Assembly: GCF_900111765.1 (NCBI RefSeq)
Contig: NZ_FOIB01000013.1
Location: 186,001 to 250,000, forward strand
Reading direction: 5' to 3'
From: Myxococcus fulvus
GTDB lineage: Bacteria; Myxococcota; Myxococcia; Myxococcales; Myxococcaceae
Length of the DNA stretch: 64,000 bases
Below are positions 4,626 to 42,623 of this stretch, piece after piece; the stretch's first letter is position 1, and each line of letters opens with the position of its first letter. Position numbers and translations under genes: made by a program. Under the pieces are notes generated by a model. It was not told where the DNA came from. It saw only the letters and a list, made by a program, of their open reading frames with translations, and did not search any database.

Positions 4626-7600
4626 TCAGGGCGGCACGCAGACGTTCAGCACCATCGTCGCCGCCTTGGCGTCCACGCTGCTGAAGGCCAGGTCGGGCAG
4701 GCCGTCCGCGTTCCAGTCCGCGATGAGCCCGTCGCGGGCGGTGCGTCCCCAGCCGGGCACGGGGCCCAGGGCGAAGGTGTTGGGCGCGGTCTGCATCACC
4801 ACCTTGCCCCCGAACGGCTCGAAGGAGAACGTGTCCGTGAGGCCGTCGGCGTTGAAGTCCGCCGTGAGGATGCCGTCGCCAGCGCCGATGCCCAGGCTGT
4901 GCCTGGGCGTCAGCGTGGGCTGACGGGCCGAATCATAGGTGAGCAGTCCCACCTCGCCCCGGTCGATGAGCAGGCCCACGTTGCCCTGTCCGTCCAGGTC
5001 CGCGCGGCCCATGGCGCGGTGCCTGTACTCGCCGGTGAAGTTCGTCTGCCCGGTGAAGGTGCCGTCGCCATTGCCCCAGATGACGTACACCTCGCCCTTG
5101 TCGATGTCGGGGCTGCCCGGGCGCAAGAGCGCCAGGTCCATGTGGCCATCCCGGTCCAGGTCCGCGGAGACCAGGGTGTGCACCTCGTAGTTGGCCGTCA
5201 CCTCCACGGTGGTGGCGGGCGCGAACTTCCCGCTGCCCAGGTTGAGCCACACGCCGAGCTGGATCTTCGAGGAGGTGAACCGCTCCGTCGTCACCAGGTC
5301 GAAGCGGCCATCCTCGTTGAGGTCCACCGCGATGAGCTCCGCCTGCGTCCAGTCCTCGTCATAGCGCTCCGCGGGCGCGAAGCCTCCGCCCGGCAGGCGC
5401 TTGAAGACGACGAGCTGGGGCAGCACGCCCGTGGACGGCGTCGTGGACGTGGTGAGCGCGGCCAGGTCCTCCCGGCCATCACCGTCCAGGTCCACGGAGA
5501 CCAGGTCCTGCACGCCGCCGGTGACCTTCTTGCCCGCCGGAGGCACGAACACCGGTGACAGCATGGCGGTGCTCCGCTCCGGGCTCCCCGACAGCGACAT
5601 GAAGATGGCGTTCTTCTCGTTGCTGCCGGCGGCCAGGTCGGCGAGGCCGTCCGCGTTGAAGTCGCCGCTGGCGAGTCCGCCTGGGGCGCCCTCGAGCTGG
5701 AGGCTCTCCGTCACGGTGCTCGCGCCCCAGAACATCTGGACGGACATGTAGCCGGTGAGCGCCACGTCCGTGAAGCCATCGCCATCGAAGTCACCCGCGG
5801 CGGGCGCGTAGTGCTCGCCGTTGTAGCCGAGGCTTCGCGGCGTGGAGAAGGGCAGGGGGCCGGCGCTGCCCGGCAGGAGGTTGAGCTGTCCGCCCGGGGC
5901 GCTGGTCCAGAACAGGTCCTGGCGGCCATCTCCGTTCATGTCGGCCAGGAGGGGAGGGCGGACGGTGGAGCCGAACGGACGGGCGAAGGGCATCTCGGAC
6001 GCGAGGGCCAGCGTCCCACCCGAGGGGCTGAAGACGCGGACCTTCTCGGGGTGGAGCAGGGCCAGGTCGTCCACGGCGCCGTCGTGGTCGAAGTCACCCG
6101 CCACCAGGTTTCCGTAGCAACTGGTGCACGGCGCGTAGACGGGGACCCGGAACGAGCCGGTGCCTGTGCCGTTGACCTGCACGATGCGGTTGTTGGCGCT
6201 GTCGAGCCGGGCGTAGTCCATGTTCTCGTCCCCGTTGAAGTCGGCGACGACAGGGCAGTCGTACGTGTCGGAGGAGATGACGGTGGTGGGGGCGAAGAAC
6301 GTCCCGTCCCCCTTGCCGCGATAGAGCAGCGTGCGTCCCAGGTGGACATGGGCGAAGAGGTCCAGCTTCCCGTCGCGGTCGAAGTCCCGGGCGGTGAGGC
6401 AGTTGAAGCTGGTGGTGACGTTGGTGCCCAGCGGCGTCGACAGGGGCGTCTGGAAGGTGCCCGTGCCCCGGCCGAGGTAGACGGTGAAGCCGCCCGTCCT
6501 GTCATCGCTGTCGGTGCCCAGGATGGCTGCGACATCCAGCTTCCCGTCGCCGTTGAAGTCCGCCACCACCGGGGGCTCCGAGCTGAGGACGTTGCCGGCG
6601 CTGGCGGAGTTGGCCAGCCGCGTGAAGCCGCGCCCGGGCCCGCTGGCGAGCACGGTGATGTCGAACAGGTTGCCCACCAGGACGTCCTGGCGCGAGTCCC
6701 CGTTGAAGTCTCCGGCGCCCATGAAGTCTCCCCCCGTGGGGTAGGCGAACTGGGACACGGGCGCGAAGGACGGCGTCTGGCACGCCAGGGGCACGACGTG
6801 GCGGTGGAAGGCGGGCGCGGAGGGCCGTCCGTCACCCGCGCTGTTCCGGGCCTTCACCTGGAACAGGTAGGTGGTGCCGGTGGTCAGCCCGGGGAGCGTC
6901 GCCACGCGGGCGCTCGCCGGGACGGTGACGGAGCTGCCGCCGGGTGTGGCGGTGACGACGTACTCGGTGACGGGGTCCGTGGCGGGCGAGGAGGCCGGGT
7001 TCCAGCGCACGACGGCGCCCGCGCCGGTGGAGTGCACACGCACGTCGGTGGGCGCGCGGGGCTGGGCGCGCAGTTGGATGGGCGCGGAGGTGGTGGCCGG
7101 GCCGGAGCCCACGCTGTTCGCGGCGGTCAGCGTGAAGGTGTAGGTGGCGCCGGGCGTGAGCGTGGAGAGGCGGGCCACGGTGGGCGAGGCCGGGAAGCTC
7201 TGGTCCACGCCCGCGGGGGAGGAGACGAGCCGGTAGCTGGTGACGGGCCGGCCGCCGTCGTTGGCGGGCGGCTGCCAGTCCAGCTCGAGCTGCCCCGCGT
7301 GGTAGACGCCGGTGAGGTGGACGGGGGCCGACGGCGGCGCGGGGAGCGTCACGGAGGCGGTGGTGGCGGTGGCGCCCACGCCCGACGAGTTCTGCGCGGC
7401 CACGCTGAAGCTGTACGTGGCGCCGTCGGTGAGGCCCGTCAGGTAGAGGCTGGTCGCCGTCGAGGACGCCTGCTGGGACGCGCCCGTCGGATGCGTGGTG
7501 ACGACGTAGCCGGTAATCGCGGCGCCGCCGTTGTTCGCGGGCGCGGTCCACCGCACCTCCGCCGCGCGGATGTACGGCGTCACCGTGACGTTCTGGGGCG

Positions 7601-8417
7601 CGCTCGGCAGGGCGGCGACGCGGACGGAGGAACTGGTGTTGGGCGTGGACGTCCCCACGGCGGTGGTGACCACCAGCGTGAAGGTGTAGCTCTGGCCGTT
7701 GGTGAGGCCGGTGACGAGCGCGGACCGCTCGGTCGTGTTGATGACCTGCCCACCCGGCGCCACGGTGATGGTGTAGCCCTGGATGGGCTGGCCGCCGTCC
7801 GACGGCAGACTCCACTCCAGCTCCACCTTCTGGTCCCCGCCCTTCAGGCGGGTCCAGGTCGGCGTGGCCGGCAAGGAGAAGGTGCGCACGGCGGCGGACT
7901 GGGTGGAGGTCTGCCGGGTGCCATCGGCGTAGATGGCGGTGACGGTGAAGCGGTACTGCGTGCCATTGGCCAGGCCGGTGACGACCGCCGTGCGAGCGGC
8001 GGCGCCCGCGCCGACCTTGATGCTGGAGGGCGTGGCGGCGACCTCGAAGGAGGACAGCGCGCTGCCCGTGGAGGAAGGGGTGTAGCTCCAGGCGACGGTC
8101 ATCTCGCGGATGCCCGGCGTGGCCGTCACTTGAGTCGGCGCGGTCAGCGTCGTGGTGCCCGCGTCACTCCGGCCTGCGTCGGGCGTCCCGGCATCCTCGC
8201 GGCCCGCGTCGGGTGCTCCCGCGTCCGGAACTCCGGCATCCTCGGTTCCAGCGTCCGTCTCACCCGCGTCGTCCTCCTCGGGCTTGCCCGCGTCGCGAGA
8301 ACCCGCGTCACTCACGAGGGAGTCGCCGGGGTCCTCGGAGGAGGACTTGCCTCCACAGCCCACGGCTCCGAAGCCGACGAGAATCGTCGCGGTCAGCAGG
8401 AGGATGAATGCTCGCAT
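4626..8417 (-). CDS. Giant surface lipoprotein: five FN3 domains plus FG-GAP/VCBS repeats
   Basis: 1263 aa from ATG 8417; GGAGAG precedes it. The signal peptide ends in a lipobox (GAVGC). A low-complexity linker with about eight Asp-Ala-Gly units follows (residues about 30-75), then five fibronectin type III domains (residues about 80-540; PSAP..V starts, DGGxPIxxYxV cores). The rest holds about 14 FG-GAP/VCBS loops of the type DFNGDGxxDL, enough for two seven-bladed propellers, each loop binding calcium in known homologues. The protein is predicted to be anchored in a membrane and displayed outside. The architecture suggests adhesion or substrate binding rather than catalysis; no catalytic domain was recognised. 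Confidence 0.85.
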   Translation of the reverse strand: MRAFILLLTATILVGFGAVGCGGKSSSEDPGDSLVSDAGSRDAGKPEEDDAGETDAGTEDAGVPDAGAPDAGREDAGTPDAGRSDAGTTTLTAPTQVTATPGIREMTVAWSYTPSSTGSALSSFEVAATPSSIKVGAGAAARTAVVTGLANGTQYRFTVTAIYADGTRQTSTQSAAVRTFSLPATPTWTRLKGGDQKVELEWSLPSDGGQPIQGYTITVAPGGQVINTTERSALVTGLTNGQSYTFTLVVTTAVGTSTPNTSSSVRVAALPSAPQNVTVTPYIRAAEVRWTAPANNGGAAITGYVVTTHPTGASQQASSTATSLYLTGLTDGATYSFSVAAQNSSGVGATATTASVTLPAPPSAPVHLTGVYHAGQLELDWQPPANDGGRPVTSYRLVSSPAGVDQSFPASPTVARLSTLTPGATYTFTLTAANSVGSGPATTSAPIQLRAQPRAPTDVRVHSTGAGAVVRWNPASSPATDPVTEYVVTATPGGSSVTVPASARVATLPGLTTGTTYLFQVKARNSAGDGRPSAPAFHRHVVPLACQTPSFAPVSQFAYPTGGDFMGAGDFNGDSRQDVLVGNLFDITVLASGPGRGFTRLANSASAGNVLSSEPPVVADFNGDGKLDVAAILGTDSDDRTGGFTVYLGRGTGTFQTPLSTPLGTNVTTSFNCLTARDFDRDGKLDLFAHVHLGRTLLYRGKGDGTFFAPTTVISSDTYDCPVVADFNGDENMDYARLDSANNRIVQVNGTGTGSFRVPVYAPCTSCYGNLVAGDFDHDGAVDDLALLHPEKVRVFSPSGGTLALASEMPFARPFGSTVRPPLLADMNGDGRQDLFWTSAPGGQLNLLPGSAGPLPFSTPRSLGYNGEHYAPAAGDFDGDGFTDVALTGYMSVQMFWGASTVTESLQLEGAPGGLASGDFNADGLADLAAGSNEKNAIFMSLSGSPERSTAMLSPVFVPPAGKKVTGGVQDLVSVDLDGDGREDLAALTTSTTPSTGVLPQLVVFKRLPGGGFAPAERYDEDWTQAELIAVDLNEDGRFDLVTTERFTSSKIQLGVWLNLGSGKFAPATTVEVTANYEVHTLVSADLDRDGHMDLALLRPGSPDIDKGEVYVIWGNGDGTFTGQTNFTGEYRHRAMGRADLDGQGNVGLLIDRGEVGLLTYDSARQPTLTPRHSLGIGAGDGILTADFNADGLTDTFSFEPFGGKVVMQTAPNTFALGPVPGWGRTARDGLIADWNADGLPDLAFSSVDAKAATMVLNVCVPP

Positions 8418-8525
8418 GATGCTTGGCTCTCCAGGGCGGGGGCGCCCAAGGGCGTTGTCCTCATCAACGTCCCGTCCGGGAGAATGTCGCGACGAATCAG
8501 GCCCAACGACGGTGGGCACCCGCCG

Positions 8526-9323
8526 TCACGGTGACGGCCCGCTCCACAGGCCCCGCGCGAGCACCTCGTCCAGATTCCGCCGGTGGAAGAATGCCTCGGT
8601 GTCGGTTCCCGGCATACCCGCGGGCAGACACACCTGCAACTCGATGGCGAGAATCCGCTCCGGGGCTCCGCGGGCCTCGCGCACCGCGGCTTCCAGCGCG
8701 CGCAGGTAGTGTCTCGCGGTGCTCAAGGTGCTCGCGGGGGACACGCCGCCATGTCCCTGGATGACGCGGGTGCGTCCCCGGGCTTCGGCGCGCGCCAGCG
8801 CCGCGTCCACGTCCGAAGGCTCGCCATAGGCGATGTAGGCCATGTTCCCCACGGCGATGTCGGCGCTGAGCAGCACGTCCAGCTCCGGGACATCCAGGTT
8901 CAGCGTGCTCGCCGTGTGGCCGGGATTCGGGAAGACCTCGATGTCGTGACGTCCCCAGCGCATCCGCAGCGGGGCCTCCAGGACGTGGTCCGGCGCGCGG
9001 TAGAAGCCCGCCTCCTCGCTCGAGCGGAAGCGCTCCGCCTGGAACGTCTCCTCGAACCGCGCGTGTGCCAGCACCGACGCCTCGGGGAAGCCCTGGAGCG
9101 CCGCCAGGTGGTCGCTGAACCCGTGGGTGCAGACCACCTGGCGCACACGCGCGCGCAGCGTGTCGGAGACCCAGGCCCGGAGCGCCTGGGCGTCCTCGCG
9201 ACTGCCCAGGGCATCCACCATCAACGCCTCGTCTCCCTGGAGGAAGAGGGTGGCGTTCGAGGCGTAGGCCTCCCCCGTGACGAGCCACGCGTCGGGGCCC
9301 AGCGGCTGTGTTCGAAGACTCAT
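8526..9323 (-). CDS. Metallo-beta-lactamase-fold hydrolase with degenerate metal motif
   Basis: 265 aa. GGGAGGAA precedes ATG 9323. The order of MBL-fold motifs is present: THGFSDH at residues 66-72, PGHTAST, SADIAVGN and GHGG. The usual HxHxDH is changed to His67-Gly-Phe69-Ser-Asp71-His72, so the second metal-binding His is Phe. The remaining ligands (later His, Asp, His) are kept. The enzyme may bind one metal or a different metal, or be inactive. The gene is divergent from a LysR regulator 100 bp away, and the large VCBS lipoprotein lies 108 bp downstream on the same strand. Substrate unknown. Confidence 0.8.
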   Translation of the reverse strand: MSLRTQPLGPDAWLVTGEAYASNATLFLQGDEALMVDALGSREDAQALRAWVSDTLRARVRQVVCTHGFSDHLAALQGFPEASVLAHARFEETFQAERFRSSEEAGFYRAPDHVLEAPLRMRWGRHDIEVFPNPGHTASTLNLDVPELDVLLSADIAVGNMAYIAYGEPSDVDAALARAEARGRTRVIQGHGGVSPASTLSTARHYLRALEAAVREARGAPERILAIELQVCLPAGMPGTDTEAFFHRRNLDEVLARGLWSGPSP

Positions 9324-9396
9324 GCGTGTTCCTCCCGAGTGTTCCTTCGAGCCCGGGTTCTCGCCGAGATGGATGCATGTGTCCAACGCATCCTCC

Positions 9397-9410
9397 GCAT
9401 GGATTCATGC
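9397..9410. promoter_or_regulatory. Palindrome in LysR/MBL divergent promoter
   Basis: GCATG-GATT-CATGC is a perfect 5-bp inverted repeat 14 bp before the LysR start codon. A related GGATGCATG block lies at 9371-9379. LysR proteins usually bind such imperfect dyads between themselves and a divergent target, so this is a candidate binding site. Confidence 0.4.
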
Positions 9411-9423
9411 GAGAATCGAATGG

Positions 9424-10323
9424 ATGAACCTGGACGTGAGACATCTGCGGTTGGTGGCGGCGGTGGTGGACACCGGCTCGGTGACGGCGGCGGCGCGGGT
9501 GCTGCACCTGTCCCAGCCGGCGCTGAGCCACCAACTGCGCGACGTGGAGGAACGGCTGGGGACCGAGCTGTTCCACCGTCAGGGCCGCCGCATGGTGCTC
9601 ACCGAGGCCGGGCGCCGCGTCCTCGACGCCGCGCGCAAGGTGGTGTCGGAGCTGGAGTCCGTCGAGGCGGACGTGGCGAGGCTCGCCCACGCGTCAGGAG
9701 GCGTCCTCCGGCTCGCCACCGAGTGCTACACGGCCTACCACTGGCTCCCGGGCGTCCTGCGCCGCTTCTCGTCCCGGCACCCGGAGGTGGAGGTGCGCAT
9801 CGCGCTCGAGGCCACGCGCCGTCCCGTGGAGGCGCTCCTGGCGGGGAGCCTGGACCTGGGCATCGTCAGCGAGCCGACGCGTCACCGGCGCCTGTCCCAC
9901 GCGCCGCTCTTCGAGGACGAACTGGTGGCCGTCATGGCGCCCTCGCATCCGCTGGCGGGGCGGAGCGTCCTGCACGCCGCGGATTTCGCGCGTGAGCACG
10001 TGCTGCTCTACAGCATCCCGTTGACGCAGAGCACCCTGGTCCAGCAGGTGCTCGTCCCAGCCGGTGTCACGCCCGCGCGGGTGTCCCATGTGGAGCTGAC
10101 CGAGGCGCTCATCGAGCTGACCAAGGCCGGGCTCGGGGTGGCGGTGCTGGCGCGCTGGGCGGTGGCGCCGGAGCTCGCGCGCGGGACGCTCGTCGCCATC
10201 CGGGTGACGCGACGAGGGCTGCGCCGGCACTGGCACGCGGTGTGGCCCCGCGCGGTGCGGCCCGCGCCCCACGTCGCCTCGTTCGTGGAGCTGCTGGCGA
10301 AGGCGGGACCTCCGGGGCGCTGA
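9424..10323 (+). CDS. LysR-family regulator, MetR-like
   Basis: 299 aa. The N-terminal helix-turn-helix MNLDVRHLRLVAAVVDTGSV...LSQPALSHQL is typical LysR. The effector domain starts with LATECYTAYHWLPGVLRRF, which closely resembles MetR (VECHTCFDWLMP), including the Cys and Trp. MetR proteins respond to homocysteine and control methionine genes, but no such genes are seen here, so the ligand is open. It probably controls the divergent MBL-fold gene. An upstream in-frame extension exists, but homology begins at the ATG at 9424. Confidence 0.88.
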   Translation: MNLDVRHLRLVAAVVDTGSVTAAARVLHLSQPALSHQLRDVEERLGTELFHRQGRRMVLTEAGRRVLDAARKVVSELESVEADVARLAHASGGVLRLATECYTAYHWLPGVLRRFSSRHPEVEVRIALEATRRPVEALLAGSLDLGIVSEPTRHRRLSHAPLFEDELVAVMAPSHPLAGRSVLHAADFAREHVLLYSIPLTQSTLVQQVLVPAGVTPARVSHVELTEALIELTKAGLGVAVLARWAVAPELARGTLVAIRVTRRGLRRHWHAVWPRAVRPAPHVASFVELLAKAGPPGR

Positions 10324-37133: not shown

Positions 37134-38684
37134 TCAGTAATTCCATGCCGTGCAGTCGGTCGTCGTGCGCGTGACGAACTCGGCGAGTGTGCGCAGGTTC
37201 CGGACGAAGGTGCTCGTGTCGAGGTAGTCGCCGGGCGTGGCGCCGCTGCGAGGTCCACCCGGGCTGTAGTTCGTGAGCCACTTCTCGTTGTTGACCGCGG
37301 CGTCGACGGCCTGCGCGGTGTCGTAGCGCAGCTGCTGGCACGAGCGCTTCATCACGGTGGTGTCGCTGGCCAGCCGGTTGTACTCGGCGCGGAGGGCGGC
37401 GAGCTGCGAGGGGACCTCCCAGGCGTAGTTCTGGTAGGTGGGCGGCGCGGAGGAGAAGCGGACTGGATAGCCGCCGGCTTTCACGGTGTAGAAGCCGAGG
37501 TTCGACGGGGCCGTGTCATCGAGCTCGATGTAGCGGTGGATGAGCGTGTCGTTGGCGAAGTCGACCGTCTCCAGGTAGGCGAGCGCGGTGGCGACGGCAT
37601 CGCGATTGGCGGGGACGCTCGGGTCGAGCTGGTAGAGGCGGAGCAGGGCCCACATGACGTCCTGGCTCTCCTGGCCGGCGATGGCGGGGGCCTCCCAGCT
37701 GCGCGCCCAGCGGGGCTGCATCTGGCTGTCATACTGCTGTGCCCAGGCGGGCTGGGGCTGGGGCATCTGGGCCCGGCGCAGGAAGTCGCCGAAGGCCGAG
37801 CGCATGGACTGATACGTCGCGGCGCGGGCGGGATAGATCTCCTGGGCCCAGTACAGCATCTCGACGAAGGCGGTCGCGAGGTTGTCGTTCAGCGTCGGGT
37901 CATCCCAGTACTCGGTGGTGTACGCATTCGCGTGGCACTGGGCCAGGCCGCACGAGGTTCCGATGGACGGAGGGTAGCTGGCCGAAAGCGCGGGCCGGGC
38001 GGCGACGGGGGCGGAGAACCCCTGGGGGAAGCCGCCGTGCGTGGGGTACTGCGAAGTCTCCATCCGCGCGCGGGCGTATGCGGATGCGCTGGAGATGTCC
38101 GCGTTCGCGAACCCGAGGAGCTGGTCCACGCGCATCATCGCGATGAGGGCGTTCTGGGTGACCTGGTCGTCGTAGGCCGTGGTGGTGCAGCCGCCGCAGC
38201 CACAGTTCGCCGTGGTGTTGAGGTAGCAGGCCCGCAGCGTCGGCGTCGGCTTGAAGTCGGCGTAGAGGCGCCAGCCTCCCGACTTCACCTGTCCGTGACG
38301 CAGCGCCATCGCCGTGTCCAGCGCGTAGGTCTTGAGCGCGGGCGTGGCGGGGTCGGCGAGCGCCGCCTCGACGAAGGCGATGGCGACGTCGGAGGTCCCG
38401 GGGGACTGAATCATGATCTGCTCTTCGTCGAGCTGGATGTCCCCCCAGCGCTCGCTCAGGTTGCTGGCATTGTGGTGCCACGCGTAGCCGCCATGCCGCG
38501 CGACGTTGTCGTGGAAGTACTTCGCCGCGTTGCGCATGCGCCCGAGCGCCTTCGCGCGCAGCGGCGTCACGGCGGCCTGGGGAGCCTCACCCGTCTGGGC
38601 CTCGCCGTCCGGCGGGCCCTCCGTCGGAGCGCAGGCGAACATCGAGAGGAGTGGCAGGAACAGGAGTCTGGCGTGGTTTCTCAT
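37134..38684 (-). CDS. Pectic-acid-lyase-like (PL10-like) lipoprotein
   Basis: 516 aa. The lipobox is MFAC at residue 18. The middle follows the pectic acid lyase family (PF09492) as I know it: QLDEEQIMIQSPGTSDVAI, MRVDQLLGFANADI, SQYPTHGGFPQGFS, NDNLATAFVEMLYWAQEIY, RAQMPQPQPAWAQQYDSQM and APAIAGQESQDVMWALLRLY. These fit an alpha/alpha-toroid fold. NCGCGGC and other Cys add disulphides. Family enzymes cleave polygalacturonate by beta-elimination; whether this one acts on pectin or on a microbial polysaccharide is open. Confidence 0.68.
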   Translation of the reverse strand: MRNHARLLFLPLLSMFACAPTEGPPDGEAQTGEAPQAAVTPLRAKALGRMRNAAKYFHDNVARHGGYAWHHNASNLSERWGDIQLDEEQIMIQSPGTSDVAIAFVEAALADPATPALKTYALDTAMALRHGQVKSGGWRLYADFKPTPTLRACYLNTTANCGCGGCTTTAYDDQVTQNALIAMMRVDQLLGFANADISSASAYARARMETSQYPTHGGFPQGFSAPVAARPALSASYPPSIGTSCGLAQCHANAYTTEYWDDPTLNDNLATAFVEMLYWAQEIYPARAATYQSMRSAFGDFLRRAQMPQPQPAWAQQYDSQMQPRWARSWEAPAIAGQESQDVMWALLRLYQLDPSVPANRDAVATALAYLETVDFANDTLIHRYIELDDTAPSNLGFYTVKAGGYPVRFSSAPPTYQNYAWEVPSQLAALRAEYNRLASDTTVMKRSCQQLRYDTAQAVDAAVNNEKWLTNYSPGGPRSGATPGDYLDTSTFVRNLRTLAEFVTRTTTDCTAWNY

Positions 38685-39026
38685 GGGGGCTCGTGCTTAC
38701 AGCCTCTGACAAGGGGCAGGGTAGTGGCAGCGTGGGAGCATGAAGCCACGACCGAGGATGGGGACGCCGGAGTGGACACCGGCACCCACGGTCGTCTCGG
38801 ACTCGACTCGCTCGTGAGGCTCTGCTCCGGCAAGGCAATCTCAATCATCTGAGTGGGTCTGGCGTGACGCTCCCCGTAGGGCGTGGTGGATGTTTGCATT
38901 TGGGTTGCAAAGTGGGCGCGCCCGGGCGCCCGCCGTGAGGAATCATTGACAGACTGTTGCGTGGATGGTTTACGGGTATTCGTGACTATTCTTGAATTGT
39001 TCGTACAGAGCGCCAGTGGGGTGTCC
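38685..39026. other. 342-bp divergent intergenic region
   Basis: It separates the lyase-like gene (minus) and the lectin gene (plus). The right half is clearly AT-richer than the genome. TTGACA (38946-38951), a 17-bp spacer and TTTACG (38969-38974) form a weak sigma-70-like promoter toward the lectin gene. No ORF or repeat that I can support. Confidence 0.5.
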
Positions 39027-39878
39027 ATGGGAAGCAATGGAATGACGATGTGCGCGCGAGGCGCCTTGTCTGGAATCGCGCTGCTCGTGAGTGCATGTGG
39101 AGCCGGTGAGGACGCGAGCGCGCGGGATGAGGTGCTCGCGGAGTCCTCGCAGGCGATCTCCTACGGTGGTCACGACTACATCTTCGTGACGTCGTGGCTG
39201 ACGTGGGATTTGGCGCAGGCGCACTGCAGGGCGGCCGGCTACGAGCTCGTGACCATCGACAATTCAGCGGAGGAGACGTTCCTCCAGGCGCACCAGTCCA
39301 CCCTGACGGTGCCCAATTGGTGGATTGGGCTCAATGACCAGGCGCAGGAAGGGCGCTTCGTCTGGTCAGGGGTGCCTTCGACCTCCAGCTACTCGAACTT
39401 CTACCCGGGAGAGCCGAACAACGGTGGGGGCGCGGAAGACTGTGTCGTGGATCGCTACCAGAGTCCGGATGGTACGGTCAGCACCGAGTCCTGGCACGAC
39501 CAGCCCTGCACCAATCGCCACCCCTTTGTCTGTGAGAAGGGGCAGGAGGCCACGACCAGCAACGGGAGCTTCTCGTACTCCGCGACGAACACGAACAGTG
39601 GCCAGCAGAACACGGTGACTCATTCCGTCACGTTGACCGCGGGGACGATCTTCACCGTGGCGACCTGCGGTGTCCTCGGCGCCTCCGCGCAGGGGGATAC
39701 GCTTCTGAGGTTGCTCGACCCGTATGGGGTGGAGGTCGCGGGGAATGATGACTTCGGCGGGGTGTGTGGGAGGGCGTCGAGCATCTCGCTGAGGCTTCTG
39801 TCCTCGGGTTCCTACACCATCGTCGCGGGTTGCTATGGGAGCGGAAGCTGCAGCGGAGTGGTCTCGTTCAGGTACTGA
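39027..39878 (+). CDS. C-type lectin-domain lipoprotein with a PPC-like C-terminus
   Basis: 283 aa. Lipobox LLVSAC at about residue 24. Residues about 45-170 are a C-type lectin-like domain: the WDLAQAHCRAAGYELVTI start, WWIGLNDQ, FYPGEPNNG (EPN, the mannose-type calcium/sugar motif), ESWHDQPC (in place of WND) and FVCEK. The C-terminal 100 residues resemble a bacterial pre-peptidase (PPC) domain: GDTLLRLLDPYG, AGNDDFGG. A surface sugar-binding protein is likely. The start is ATG 39027; ATG 39042 is an alternative. Confidence 0.85.
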   Translation: MGSNGMTMCARGALSGIALLVSACGAGEDASARDEVLAESSQAISYGGHDYIFVTSWLTWDLAQAHCRAAGYELVTIDNSAEETFLQAHQSTLTVPNWWIGLNDQAQEGRFVWSGVPSTSSYSNFYPGEPNNGGGAEDCVVDRYQSPDGTVSTESWHDQPCTNRHPFVCEKGQEATTSNGSFSYSATNTNSGQQNTVTHSVTLTAGTIFTVATCGVLGASAQGDTLLRLLDPYGVEVAGNDDFGGVCGRASSISLRLLSSGSYTIVAGCYGSGSCSGVVSFRY

Positions 39879-39897
39879 GTCTGGGATGTGAGCAGGG

Positions 39898-39933
39898 GCC
39901 GGGAGGCGCTCTTCGGTGTTGGCGCCTCCTGGC
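39898..39933 (+). terminator. Long hairpin after the lectin gene
   Basis: GCCGGGAGGCGC (39898-39909) pairs with GCGCCTCCTGGC (39922-39933), 12 bp including one G-T pair, loop 12 nt, 20 nt after the stop. The rest of the 212-bp gap to 40090 has lower GC and no supported gene. Confidence 0.6.
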
Positions 39934-40090
39934 GGATGCTAGGGTCCTGACAAAAAATCGCCTCGCCAGTGGCCATACCCATCGGGGGATTCGCTCACCC
40001 TGCTGGAGGTGTCAGGCCCTCTTCGCGCATTGGGAAGGAACTCTTCGCCCCCCTTTGCAACTGGGCGATGCGCTGTCGCAATATGCAGCC

Positions 40091-41023
40091 ATGTCGTTCC
40101 CTGAATTCCAGCGCTACTTGGCTAGCGAGTACATCTCACGCAAAACAGGGTCTCCGCTCAGGCCCGAAGCAGCAAGTGACTACGCCTCGCGGCTGCGCCG
40201 ACTTGAAGCGGTGACGGGGTGGCAAGTGGAGGAGGCGAGCCCCGACATCTTGCGTGCGTTCGTGGACCGCATCCGAGAGGACCAGGGACTGGCTGACAAA
40301 CTGGGCCCAGGAGGAGACTCAGACGTCCAGGTAGCTCTCAGGCGTTATGCTGACTACTTGTCACGCCCTCGCACCCATGCTGCTGCTCCAACGGCTGATG
40401 CCTCCGATGCGCCAGCGATGACGGAGCCTCAATCCGTGAGGAGGCAGTCTCGTGCGCCGCGCTCCTTCGATCCCACTCAGACTGTTTCTGCCTTCGTTCC
40501 GAGTGAAGAGTACGAGGATCCAGAGAAGACGTTGACCCGCCGCGAGAAAGCCACCAAGGAGCACCGCGCCCTTCTCATCGCTCTCCACCGACACTTGGTG
40601 GATGCGGGGTGGACCGAGATTCAGGAGATCACTACATCCGTGGACTTGTGGGCAACGAACCCGGCCGATGGGCGCCGCGTCATCTTCGAAGCGAAGACTC
40701 TTGATGCCAGTACCGAGGTAAAACAGACCCGGTACGCGCTCTCGCAGCTCCTGGAGTATCGCTACTTCGACGGAAGCAGCGAGGATCGACTCTGCTTGGT
40801 GACGAACGCCCCGATCGGTGATGCGCGCGAGCAGTTCCTGAGGACGCAGGGGGTGGCCGTGCTCGTGCTCGATGGCGAAGGCGGCCATGCGGTGGGGGCG
40901 CTCGCGCACGAGTGGTTCGGAGCCTTGATTGGCATCGGAGCTTCTGCGGCGCCGAACCGCACGGATGGCGCGGAGGACTCAATGGACGCCCTCTATTCTC
41001 GAACGGTTCGTGGCGTCAGGTGA
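40091..41023 (+). CDS. Orphan PD-(D/E)XK nuclease with an integrase-like N-terminal domain
   Basis: 310 aa. Residues about 5-95 look like a SAM-like/core-binding helical domain (SPLRPEAASDYASRLRRLE, LRAFVDRIRED, YADYLSRP). After a Pro/Ser linker, residues about 150-285 form a restriction-endonuclease-like domain: Asp in SVDLWATNPADG and Glu-Ala-Lys in VIFEAKTL, followed by a conserved QLLEYRYF. This fits Mrr-like or other nucleic-acid-cutting enzymes. Codon use is less GC-rich than the neighbours, suggesting transfer. No methylase, helicase or partner gene is next to it. A DNA-defence role is inferred, not shown. Confidence 0.65.
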   Translation: MSFPEFQRYLASEYISRKTGSPLRPEAASDYASRLRRLEAVTGWQVEEASPDILRAFVDRIREDQGLADKLGPGGDSDVQVALRRYADYLSRPRTHAAAPTADASDAPAMTEPQSVRRQSRAPRSFDPTQTVSAFVPSEEYEDPEKTLTRREKATKEHRALLIALHRHLVDAGWTEIQEITTSVDLWATNPADGRRVIFEAKTLDASTEVKQTRYALSQLLEYRYFDGSSEDRLCLVTNAPIGDAREQFLRTQGVAVLVLDGEGGHAVGALAHEWFGALIGIGASAAPNRTDGAEDSMDALYSRTVRGVR

Positions 41024-41303
41024 CCTGCGAACCTGGTGGAGTGGTCTTCAGCTCCGACGGACATGGCCACCGGCGAGGCGGTTTGTCAGGACCTCCGAGC
41101 TGGGTTCACTCATCTGTGTCCTTCGCGCGGCCTCACTCTGCCGCGCCACTCTCTCCGTCTATTTCACGGTGGTGCATCGAATCGATGAACCTGGGCACCA
41201 TCAATCAACGCGTCCTGAACCACGCTTCCTGAGCGACTGAGTCCAGGGGCCGGCCTGTCCCGCCGGTCCCTTCGGCCCACTCAGTGACGACACCTCGGAA
41301 ACA
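41024..41303. other. Gene-free 280-bp stretch downstream of the nuclease gene
   Basis: I see no supported gene. Frames here are short, and one begins inside the nuclease gene out of frame. It contains the bidirectional terminator at 41236-41285. Confidence 0.5.
41236..41285. terminator. Bidirectional terminator between convergent units
   Basis: ACTGAGT (41236-41242) pairs with ACTCAGT (41279-41285), and inner GGGGCCGG (41246-41253) with CCGGTCCC (41263-41270). It lies between the nuclease (plus) and the Cys-rich lipoprotein (minus). Confidence 0.5.
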
Positions 41304-41693
41304 CTAACACTGCCACATGTTCCTCGGGGAGCCTGGCTCGCAGGTGCACGAGACAGGCCTGGAGCTGTTGTCGCAGCACGGCCTCTGCAACCCAATCTGG
41401 CCGCAGGGCTTGCCCTGAACGCTCGAACACAGAATCGTCGGAGTGGAGCAGGTCGGGGTCGGCGGACAGGCCTTGAATACCCCGTCACACGTCACTCCGA
41501 CATTGTTCGTCGCGGAGCAAGTGGTCGTCGTGGCCGGACAACTGACCGTACCCGTGGAACACGTGGCCGAGCACGCCGTGAGCTCCTCGGAAGACACCGC
41601 GAGCTCCTCAGCCGCGACATCACCTGTCGCGCCACCACAGCCGACCCACGACAGACCGACAAACACAACCAACATCGTCAGGACACGATGCAT
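41304..41693 (-). CDS. Cys-rich lipoprotein
   Basis: 129 aa. Signal peptide with lipobox LSWVGC (residue 19). The mature part has about 16 Cys in short spacings (ACSATCSTGTVSC, TCSATNNVGVTC, PCCDN, CTCEP), so it should be a disulphide-stabilised surface or periplasmic protein. AVSSEEL before the Cys-rich part is a motif often seen in myxobacterial exported proteins. No family name recognised. Confidence 0.75.
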   Translation of the reverse strand: MHRVLTMLVVFVGLSWVGCGGATGDVAAEELAVSSEELTACSATCSTGTVSCPATTTTCSATNNVGVTCDGVFKACPPTPTCSTPTILCSSVQGKPCGQIGLQRPCCDNSSRPVSCTCEPGSPRNMWQC

Positions 41694-41960
41694 CCGTGAA
41701 CCTCCAGACCGGAGTTGAGCACGCCTCGTTGGCCCGAGCTGTGGTTCGTGGAGAATCGCCGTGTGAGGGGCCCCCCATCATTCCCCAGCAAGGGAGGGGA
41801 TCACCAGCACTCCCTCGGCTCGCCGGGATTCCAGCGGCAATCGATTGCTAAAGACACACGCTCATCAGCCGTGCCTTGTTGCGTTATCGAGACAGGGAGC
41901 ACGGGGCGTCCGGACCGACCCGGGGTCCTTTCCCGTGGGAAAGGGGATAGAATTCCTCCC

Positions 41961-42623
41961 ATGGACAGGGTCGCCCTCTTCTTCTGGCTGTGGGTGCTGT
42001 TCCTCGCGGTCAACGTGATGTGGGCGCTGGCCCAGGCGGTGGTGGCGAGTGCCTTGGGGGCACGGCCGCTTGCGGTTCGCATCGGCTATGGGCCCCAGTT
42101 GGTGGCGTGGCGCATGGCGGGCATCGGCTGGAGTCTGCATCCCATCACCCTGGGCAGCTCCGCGTCGTTCGTGCCAGAGGCCGAGGAGGGCTCGACGGAG
42201 CCGCTCAAGAGCCGGCTGCTCAAGCTGCCACCCCCGCTGCATGCACTGGCCCTGGCGGTGCCCTGGTACGTGCAGATTGGCGTCGCCATGGCGTGCCTGG
42301 GGCCCGCGGAGGGCTTCCATCAATTCACCGAGGGCTTCCCCGCCGTGTTCAATCTCTCCGCGCTGCCGGGCCGCGTGGAGCGCTTCGTCGGCTTGCTCCG
42401 TGAAGGAGAGCTGGTGCGGGCCTGGGGCATCATGAGCGCGCGGATGGCGTCCCTGAACCTGCTCCCCATTCCCTCCCTGGCGGGCGGCTACCTGATGCTC
42501 CTGCCCTGGCGTGACAAATCGCCGACGCCGACATGGGTCCGGCCCATCGCCGCCGTCCTGCTCGCCATCTCGCTCGTCTGGGCCGTGTGGGTCGCGTCCC
42601 TCTTCGTCAGGGCCATTCTCTAG
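41961..42623 (+). CDS. Catalytically inactive site-2-protease-like membrane protein
   Basis: 220 aa with about four membrane helices. The topology follows RseP/M50 proteases: the first helix is followed by RIGYGPQ (as in RseP GFGP), and the later helix has NLLPIPSLAGG (Asn166 onward). The zinc motif HExxH is replaced by Leu-Ala-Gln-Ala-Val at residues about 23-27, and the LDG Asp is Ala. Both catalytic elements are lost, so a non-proteolytic membrane role (sensor or binding) is inferred. ATG 41961 follows CCTCCC; no strong ribosome site. Confidence 0.7.
   Translation: MDRVALFFWLWVLFLAVNVMWALAQAVVASALGARPLAVRIGYGPQLVAWRMAGIGWSLHPITLGSSASFVPEAEEGSTEPLKSRLLKLPPPLHALALAVPWYVQIGVAMACLGPAEGFHQFTEGFPAVFNLSALPGRVERFVGLLREGELVRAWGIMSARMASLNLLPIPSLAGGYLMLLPWRDKSPTPTWVRPIAAVLLAISLVWAVWVASLFVRAIL

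Follow-up and report, generated by a model that had tools for sequence, protein, structure and literature searches.

A candidate single-gene restriction endonuclease of Myxococcus fulvus that joins a PD-(D/E)XK nuclease to a short, predicted helical module

The gene described here lies in a 64,000-nucleotide stretch of DNA (the window; G000:C13:186001-250000) within the 10.8-Mb genome of Myxococcus fulvus. Our best explanation is that it encodes a single-gene, modification-dependent (type IV-like) restriction endonuclease, a reading to which we give a probability of about one half, and whose modification dependence is drawn from sister proteins. As proposed, a helical module of about 95 aa at the N-terminus would bind a particular feature of DNA – most probably phage or plasmid DNA that is modified or foreign in some other way – and a flexible linker would let the C-terminal PD-(D/E)XK domain cut nearby, with D185, E200 and K202 holding the metal ion for cutting. 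Host DNA would be without the target feature, and we therefore propose that no partner methyltransferase is needed. What the analysis shows is the two domains with their conservation, the predicted fold of the nuclease, the pairing of reader and nuclease in sister proteins and a patchy spread; we infer DNA cleavage, the role of the N-terminal module as the specificity part and modification as the target. The parts of the gene and their surroundings are listed in Table 1.

Table 1. Position and properties of the gene, its parts and adjoining features (window coordinates).
Feature	Coordinates	Strand	Remarks
Intact ORF, 310 aa	40091..41023	+	ATG at 40091, stop at 41023; dN/dS 0.26 against the G017 copy
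N-terminal module, aa 1-95	40091..40375	+	low-confidence helices 3-19, 25-42, 51-71, 76-90; dN/dS 0.23
Linker, aa 96-122, unconserved	40376..40456	+	dN/dS 1.39 over 27 codons; block pLDDT 40-47 over aa 91-120
PD-(D/E)XK nuclease domain, aa 123-285	40457..40945	+	H158, D185, E200, K202, Q219, Y223
38-bp conserved element, directly 5′ of ATG	40053..40090	+	possible leaderless promoter, TTGCAA, 18 nt, CAATAT
GC-rich inverted repeat in the gap between lectin gene and nuclease gene	39891..39940	+	no T-run after repeat
Accessory block	38668..41813	.	beside homologous flanks, G005 carries other DNA up to contig ends

The open reading frame is real and is under purifying selection. Comparison with the copy in genome G017 – a single pair – shows constraint on the module and on the nuclease, and its absence from the linker (Table 1), a pattern that two functional domains joined by a tether would be expected to show. 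The same comparison bears on the possibility that the gene is a remnant, in decay and retained as an accessory gene through chance. Degraded copies, broken or deleted, are indeed present elsewhere (L022, L027 and L031), and the copy at L021 has lost the catalytic Asp; but the window ORF is intact with all of its motifs, and dN/dS comes to 0.26 for the whole ORF and 0.16 for its nuclease part, so that we regard decay as highly improbable. Two of these loci, L021 and L022, occupy the same site. The M. fulvus genome itself holds only one convincing copy, a second match having an E value of 0.025.

Searches with the window protein returned nothing significant in Pfam, NCBIfam, PADLOC, PHROGs or, by sequence, the PDB, where phmmer gave no match to any chain at E up to 10. 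The weak Pfam matches – Bse634I (E 0.11 for the whole protein, 0.038 for the domain), XisH (two of 12 members, best 0.16) and LAIKA (one of 12 members, 0.2) – were below cut-off or attributable to chance, and those in NCBIfam were likewise below cut-off or treated as chance.

Evidence that the C-terminal half is a PD-(D/E)XK nuclease, as the first-pass annotation had proposed, comes from conserved motifs, an AlphaFold model and structural matches, and the assignment is well supported. Both stretches on which that proposal was based, VDLWAT and VIFEAKTL, are present in the protein. Every one of the 12 aligned rows has H158, E200, K202, Q219 and Y223, and 11 of them have D185 as well; a conserved QxxxY accompanies the D ... 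(D/E)-x-K active-site motif (D185, E200-x-K202). The model, built from a six-sequence alignment in which five sequences covered the nuclease domain only, reaches block pLDDT values of 83-95 over aa 151-270 and has the alpha-beta core fold of the superfamily. The leading Foldseek matches are mostly to what we take to be PD-(D/E)XK enzymes (best E 0.0015, none at or below 0.001). VIA-align, for which a best Z of 7 to 8 is common in models without a clear match, gave Z 8-11 to Can2, XisH, Cdn1, Card1 and EndoMS: 11.0 to the Can2-type structure 8bao (145 aligned, rmsd 4.5), 10.0-10.4 to XisH (best with 111 aligned, rmsd 2.6), 10.3 to Cdn1, 10.0 to Card1, 9.8 to a Pyrococcus repair endonuclease and 9.2 to EndoMS. 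Hjc is also structurally similar. Metal-dependent cleavage of DNA is the predicted activity of this half.

The fold alone does not say restriction, for its nearest solved neighbours include the cA4-activated Can2 and Card1, the excision factor XisH and the repair nuclease EndoMS. That Can2, XisH, Cdn1 and Card1 are the best structural matches would fit a nuclease gated by a ligand or a partner, in which the N-terminal module serves as a dimerisation or signalling domain and the logic is like that of Can2/Card1 or XisH. The likeness, however, covers the nuclease fold only; Pfam reported no CARF family for the window protein at E up to 10, and the five neighbours scanned include no CRISPR or recombinase gene. 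We consider a gated nuclease decidedly unlikely.

The argument for restriction draws on the company that the same nuclease keeps in sister proteins. In those from the same bacterial family it comes after a ScoMcrA-type head and an SRA domain, an arrangement known from type IV, modification-dependent, restriction enzymes. At five loci (L023-L026 and L028) the part in front of it is some 260-280 aa long and opens with a head of this type, and the head at L024 matches the ScoMcrA structure 5zmm by phmmer at E 1.1e-11. PADLOC assigned mREase_IV to three of the six relatives scanned (L024, L023 and L029); it returned nothing for the window protein, L032 or L037. Alignment placed a ScoMcrA head and/or an SRA domain in L025, L026, L028 and L037, the last a Solirubrobacter protein in which an alignable SRA stretch follows another head. 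The protein at L034, which is the same contig place as L024, was modelled with a mean pLDDT of 71.5 and holds an SRA domain (Z 12.3 to that of SUVH5, 128 aligned, rmsd 2.9); the model also matches ScoMcrA, TagI, AspBHI and LpnPI, as well as MspJI over both domains but with an rmsd of 14. Every partner identified by a tool – by PADLOC in L023, L024 and L029, by fold in L034, by alignment in L025, L026, L028 and L037 – is thus a ScoMcrA head and/or an SRA domain, and the identified partners appear, from sequence and model comparisons, to be DNA-reading or type IV modules. These sister proteins, with the nuclease placed behind a ScoMcrA head and SRA, are what lends support to the restriction role that had been raised as a possibility.

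Other relatives carry partner domains that no tool matched (L032, L112 and L033). The protein at L112, in a viral contig, begins with another module, for which Pfam gave no match, and that at L032 (the same protein as L114) has an EVE-like domain recognised by eye only, without Pfam support. The occurrence of one nuclease behind varied N-terminal modules makes it look like a mobile effector domain. Three further observations concern these proteins. On viral contig L114 the gene at 8876-10048 (minus strand), which adjoins that for the EVE-like (by eye) plus PD-(D/E)XK protein, has a weak match to SduA_C (Shedu) at E 0.001, below cut-off. The remote nuclease relatives L128, L130 and L133 share a further N-terminal module with a GFGHEEWLFN-type motif, and another module (FTERxYxK ... 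IDWG) is found in L112 and L131 and as a broken copy in L022.

A central issue is the nature of the N-terminal module. Residues 1-95 match the G017 protein and the start of a protein in genome G108 (locus L030; 50% identity over 90 aa), which has the module at its start and an HNH_2 nuclease at its other end. A three-row profile of the module matched six of 195 genomes: the full module is present in G000, G017 and G108, fragments are present in G124 (just the first 22 residues) and G114 (without the module start), and the match in G193 (L043, E 0.003) was judged to be chance from the protein read at that locus. Viral contigs contained no relative of the module.

The first-pass annotation had described this region as integrase-like, a core-binding-like helical domain followed by a linker. 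AlphaFold predicts four helices at low confidence (pLDDT about 45-60, from a single sequence), and the linker is unconserved; homology to core-binding domains found no support in sequence. Set by hhalign against 32 Phage_int_SAM_1 (PF02899) domains from related genomes – one of which, L151, was taken from the wrong strand – the module, with a query profile of three rows only, scored a probability of 1.6%, a value exceeded by two of 20 column-shuffled controls, whereas a true member scored 99.2%. Pfam gave no core-binding family match in the window protein, and structure searches listed no core-binding domain for aa 1-95, a low-confidence part of the model that they barely covered. Homology to the ScoMcrA head or to SRA was rejected on the same grounds (hhalign 0.1% each, with 50 head shuffles reaching up to 3.0% and positive controls at 99-100%), although a profile of three rows may miss remote homology. 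Against the PDB the best matches of the module profile were tRNA hydroxylases at E 0.26 or worse, and no DNA-reader family was recognised in aa 1-95 by Pfam, NCBIfam, PADLOC, PDB sequence search, PHROGs or hhalign. The charge of the module is balanced (15 K+R, 15 D+E) and offers no obvious DNA-binding surface. Its pairing with two different nucleases, PD-(D/E)XK and HNH_2, is as a specificity module would be.

These properties would also suit a DNA-targeting nuclease that is independent of modification, in which the module would pick out a sequence or a structural feature, such as one belonging to a mobile element, and the PD-(D/E)XK domain would cut it: no known modification reader was found in aa 1-95, the module occurs with two nucleases, and the distribution of the gene is accessory. 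Set against this is the fact that all relatives with a tool-identified partner carry a ScoMcrA head and/or SRA. We hold modification-independent targeting to be somewhat unlikely.

The 38 bases directly 5′ of the ATG are conserved at 32/38 positions in G017, 34/38 in G124 and 30/38 in G108. The G108 figure is higher than the nucleotide identity over all of the DNA that this locus shares with the window, which is 68% with the element counted in, although the sequence beyond the element on its 5′ side differs. Allowing up to two mismatches, a pattern for the element was found at exactly four places in the 195 genomes, all carrying the module start, and a backwards control gave none; the pattern was built from those four loci, and the finding is therefore its absence elsewhere. 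The G114 fragment, which has no module start, has no element. A coding explanation was rejected: read in that frame, the differences among the window, L020 and L030 are, by eye, mostly non-synonymous, and the stretch was on this account taken as regulatory DNA. The spacing TTGCAA-18-CAATAT could represent a leaderless promoter, which would place the start of transcription at the ATG itself; a sigma-70 scan of 38600-42000 listed no site at the element. We put forward, tentatively and as a possibility that may well prove wrong, that the module represents a novel type of DNA reader, all-helical and distinct from the SRA, EVE, SBD and winged-helix families, that fits both PD-(D/E)XK and HNH nucleases and moves together with the control element at its start, promoter and reader forming one transferable unit.

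The composition of the locus sets the gene apart less sharply than had been claimed. Lower GC than the flanks is borne out for the ORF itself (GC 62.4%; GC3 0.70, where the 47 window ORFs of at least 150 aa called under a simple GC3 rule have a median of 0.92), and among those 47 only an over-extended version of the same ORF has a lower GC3 or odder codon use. The low-GC zone, however, runs from about 38.5 to 42.0 kb and takes in the lectin-like and Cys-rich neighbours; the dip extends over both and so does not mark the nuclease gene alone. Terminator hairpins on both sides, a further part of the claim, found no support: a consensus scan of 38600-42000 gave two sites, with 1.9 predicted from chance and none on the plus strand, and the idea of a terminator-bounded cassette was rejected.

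A single-gene insertion is plausible, but unproven. In G005, the genome with the most similar flanks, homology extends up to window position 38667 and resumes at 41814; past these limits G005 has different DNA, 291 bases on the first side and about 1,950 on the second, the longer piece with two ORFs resembling (by eye) cytochrome b561 and an oxidoreductase, and then the contig ends. With other DNA and contig ends on both sides, no clean empty site can be read. In G003, G011 and G008, different genes lie upstream of the M50-peptidase gene that is downstream of the nuclease in the window. Normal codon use together with conserved synteny, the pattern named beforehand as speaking against the first-pass reading, was accordingly not seen.

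Five flanking products were scanned – a pectate-lyase-like protein, a C-type lectin, a Cys-rich protein, an M50 peptidase and a nucleoside hydrolase – of which one had no match at all. None matched a methyltransferase, and no defence, CRISPR or recombinase gene was found among them. The gene is an orphan, as first described, and no defence association was found at the locus within these five products. The gene directly upstream (39027-39878, plus strand; GC3 0.82) encodes a C-type lectin domain (Pfam Lectin_C, E 5.6e-17) and lies in the same low-GC accessory block. The small Cys-rich, lipoprotein-like ORF at 41304-41693 (minus strand) has no Pfam match, and the roughly 125 bases that precede it have similar stretches (85%) elsewhere in G011 and G008.

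The gene is accessory and patchily inherited. With the whole protein as query (E up to 0.001), matches were found in four of the 27 genus genomes and in 13 of the 195 phylum genomes, its own being counted in both. A nuclease-domain profile raised these numbers to six and 22, the extra matches being remote and partly fragmentary. The same full-length layout is present only in G017 (81% identical by alignment, 74% over the tblastn match), where the gene occupies a different location, with 194 bases separating it from the 3′ end of a tRNA-Pro gene that itself adjoins an ihfA-like gene (by eye). That tRNA-ihfA stretch exists in all 27 genus genomes and, among the matches listed, holds the nuclease only in G017. 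A tRNA gene lies somewhere in six of 14 larger stretches around relatives (L020, L021, L023, L024, L026 and L033), a raw count without a background rate, in which L024 and L026 are the same site; proximity to tRNA genes is only suggestive. Of the five relatives whose records are named, four come from Corallococcus. A search of contigs gave no loci in a first scan and five in a second scan with alignment. Three nuclease relatives lie in IMG/VR viral contigs; phage records contained no match to the window protein, and plasmid records one weak match (E 0.008). Beside the decayed nuclease copy at L027, positions 7091-9750 hold genes that by eye are OLD-type ATPase nuclease-like and transposase-like.

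This distribution bears on a last alternative, that the protein has a housekeeping role in DNA repair, as a nuclease like EndoMS or Hjc, to both of which the domain is structurally similar. Whole-protein matches in just four of 27 genus genomes, atypical codon use and different chromosomal sites all run counter to it; the patchy distribution refutes it in practice, and we allow it only the slightest chance.

In weighing the evidence for modification-dependent restriction we counted in its favour the conserved motifs and confidently modelled nuclease, the sister proteins that combine reader and nuclease, the pairing of the module with two nucleases, the constraint on both domains but not on the linker, the patchy spread with its degraded copies, the relatives in viral contigs and the lack of a methyltransferase among the five neighbours. 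We counted against it the lack of a known reader in aa 1-95, the balanced charge, the lack of a defence gene among the five flanking products, the nuclease folds of other function among the closest matches and the PADLOC nulls.

A reader and a nuclease in one chain, the layout seen in the sister proteins, is also that of MspJI, LpnPI and AspBHI, which have an SRA-like domain and a nuclease of the PD-(D/E)XK type; the window protein, in contrast, has no detectable SRA and carries the short, predicted helical module instead. ScoMcrA (5zmm) is composed of head, sulfur-binding, SRA-like and HNH domains, ending in the HNH (PMC6224610); its head and SRA domain are common to the sister proteins, whereas the window nuclease has a PD-(D/E)XK rather than an HNH fold and no ScoMcrA domain was detected in the window protein. 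The EVE-PD-(D/E)XK and EVE-HNH endonucleases are likewise built of interchangeable reader and nuclease modules (PMC7641849), but no EVE was detected in the window protein and the EVE-like reading of L032 is by eye only. The PD-(D/E)XK-wH adenine-methylation-dependent endonucleases also combine a PD-(D/E)XK nuclease with a small DNA-reading domain, and adjoining methyltransferase genes are rare among them (PMC11037411); their reader is a winged helix, of which none was detected here. CMoRE, a single-component GIY-YIG type IV enzyme, is a case of one-gene, modification-dependent restriction (PMC12923530) in which the nuclease superfamily differs. MspJI-type, ScoMcrA, EVE-fusion and wH-fusion enzymes may thus be seen as published relatives in logic (PMC6224610, PMC7641849, PMC7461809, PMC11037411, PMC12923530). 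No description of the present layout was found in the literature covered, which is weak evidence of absence given that subscription papers fell mostly outside that coverage.

In modification-dependent restriction enzymes, readers and nucleases are interchangeable parts. We have followed one nuclease family from ScoMcrA-head/SRA and several other partners to a module that matches no family found and that also fronts an HNH protein. If the module reads a DNA mark, it would add a class of reader and a possible tool for mapping modified DNA. The gene is a compact and testable candidate for one-gene defence from the myxobacteria.
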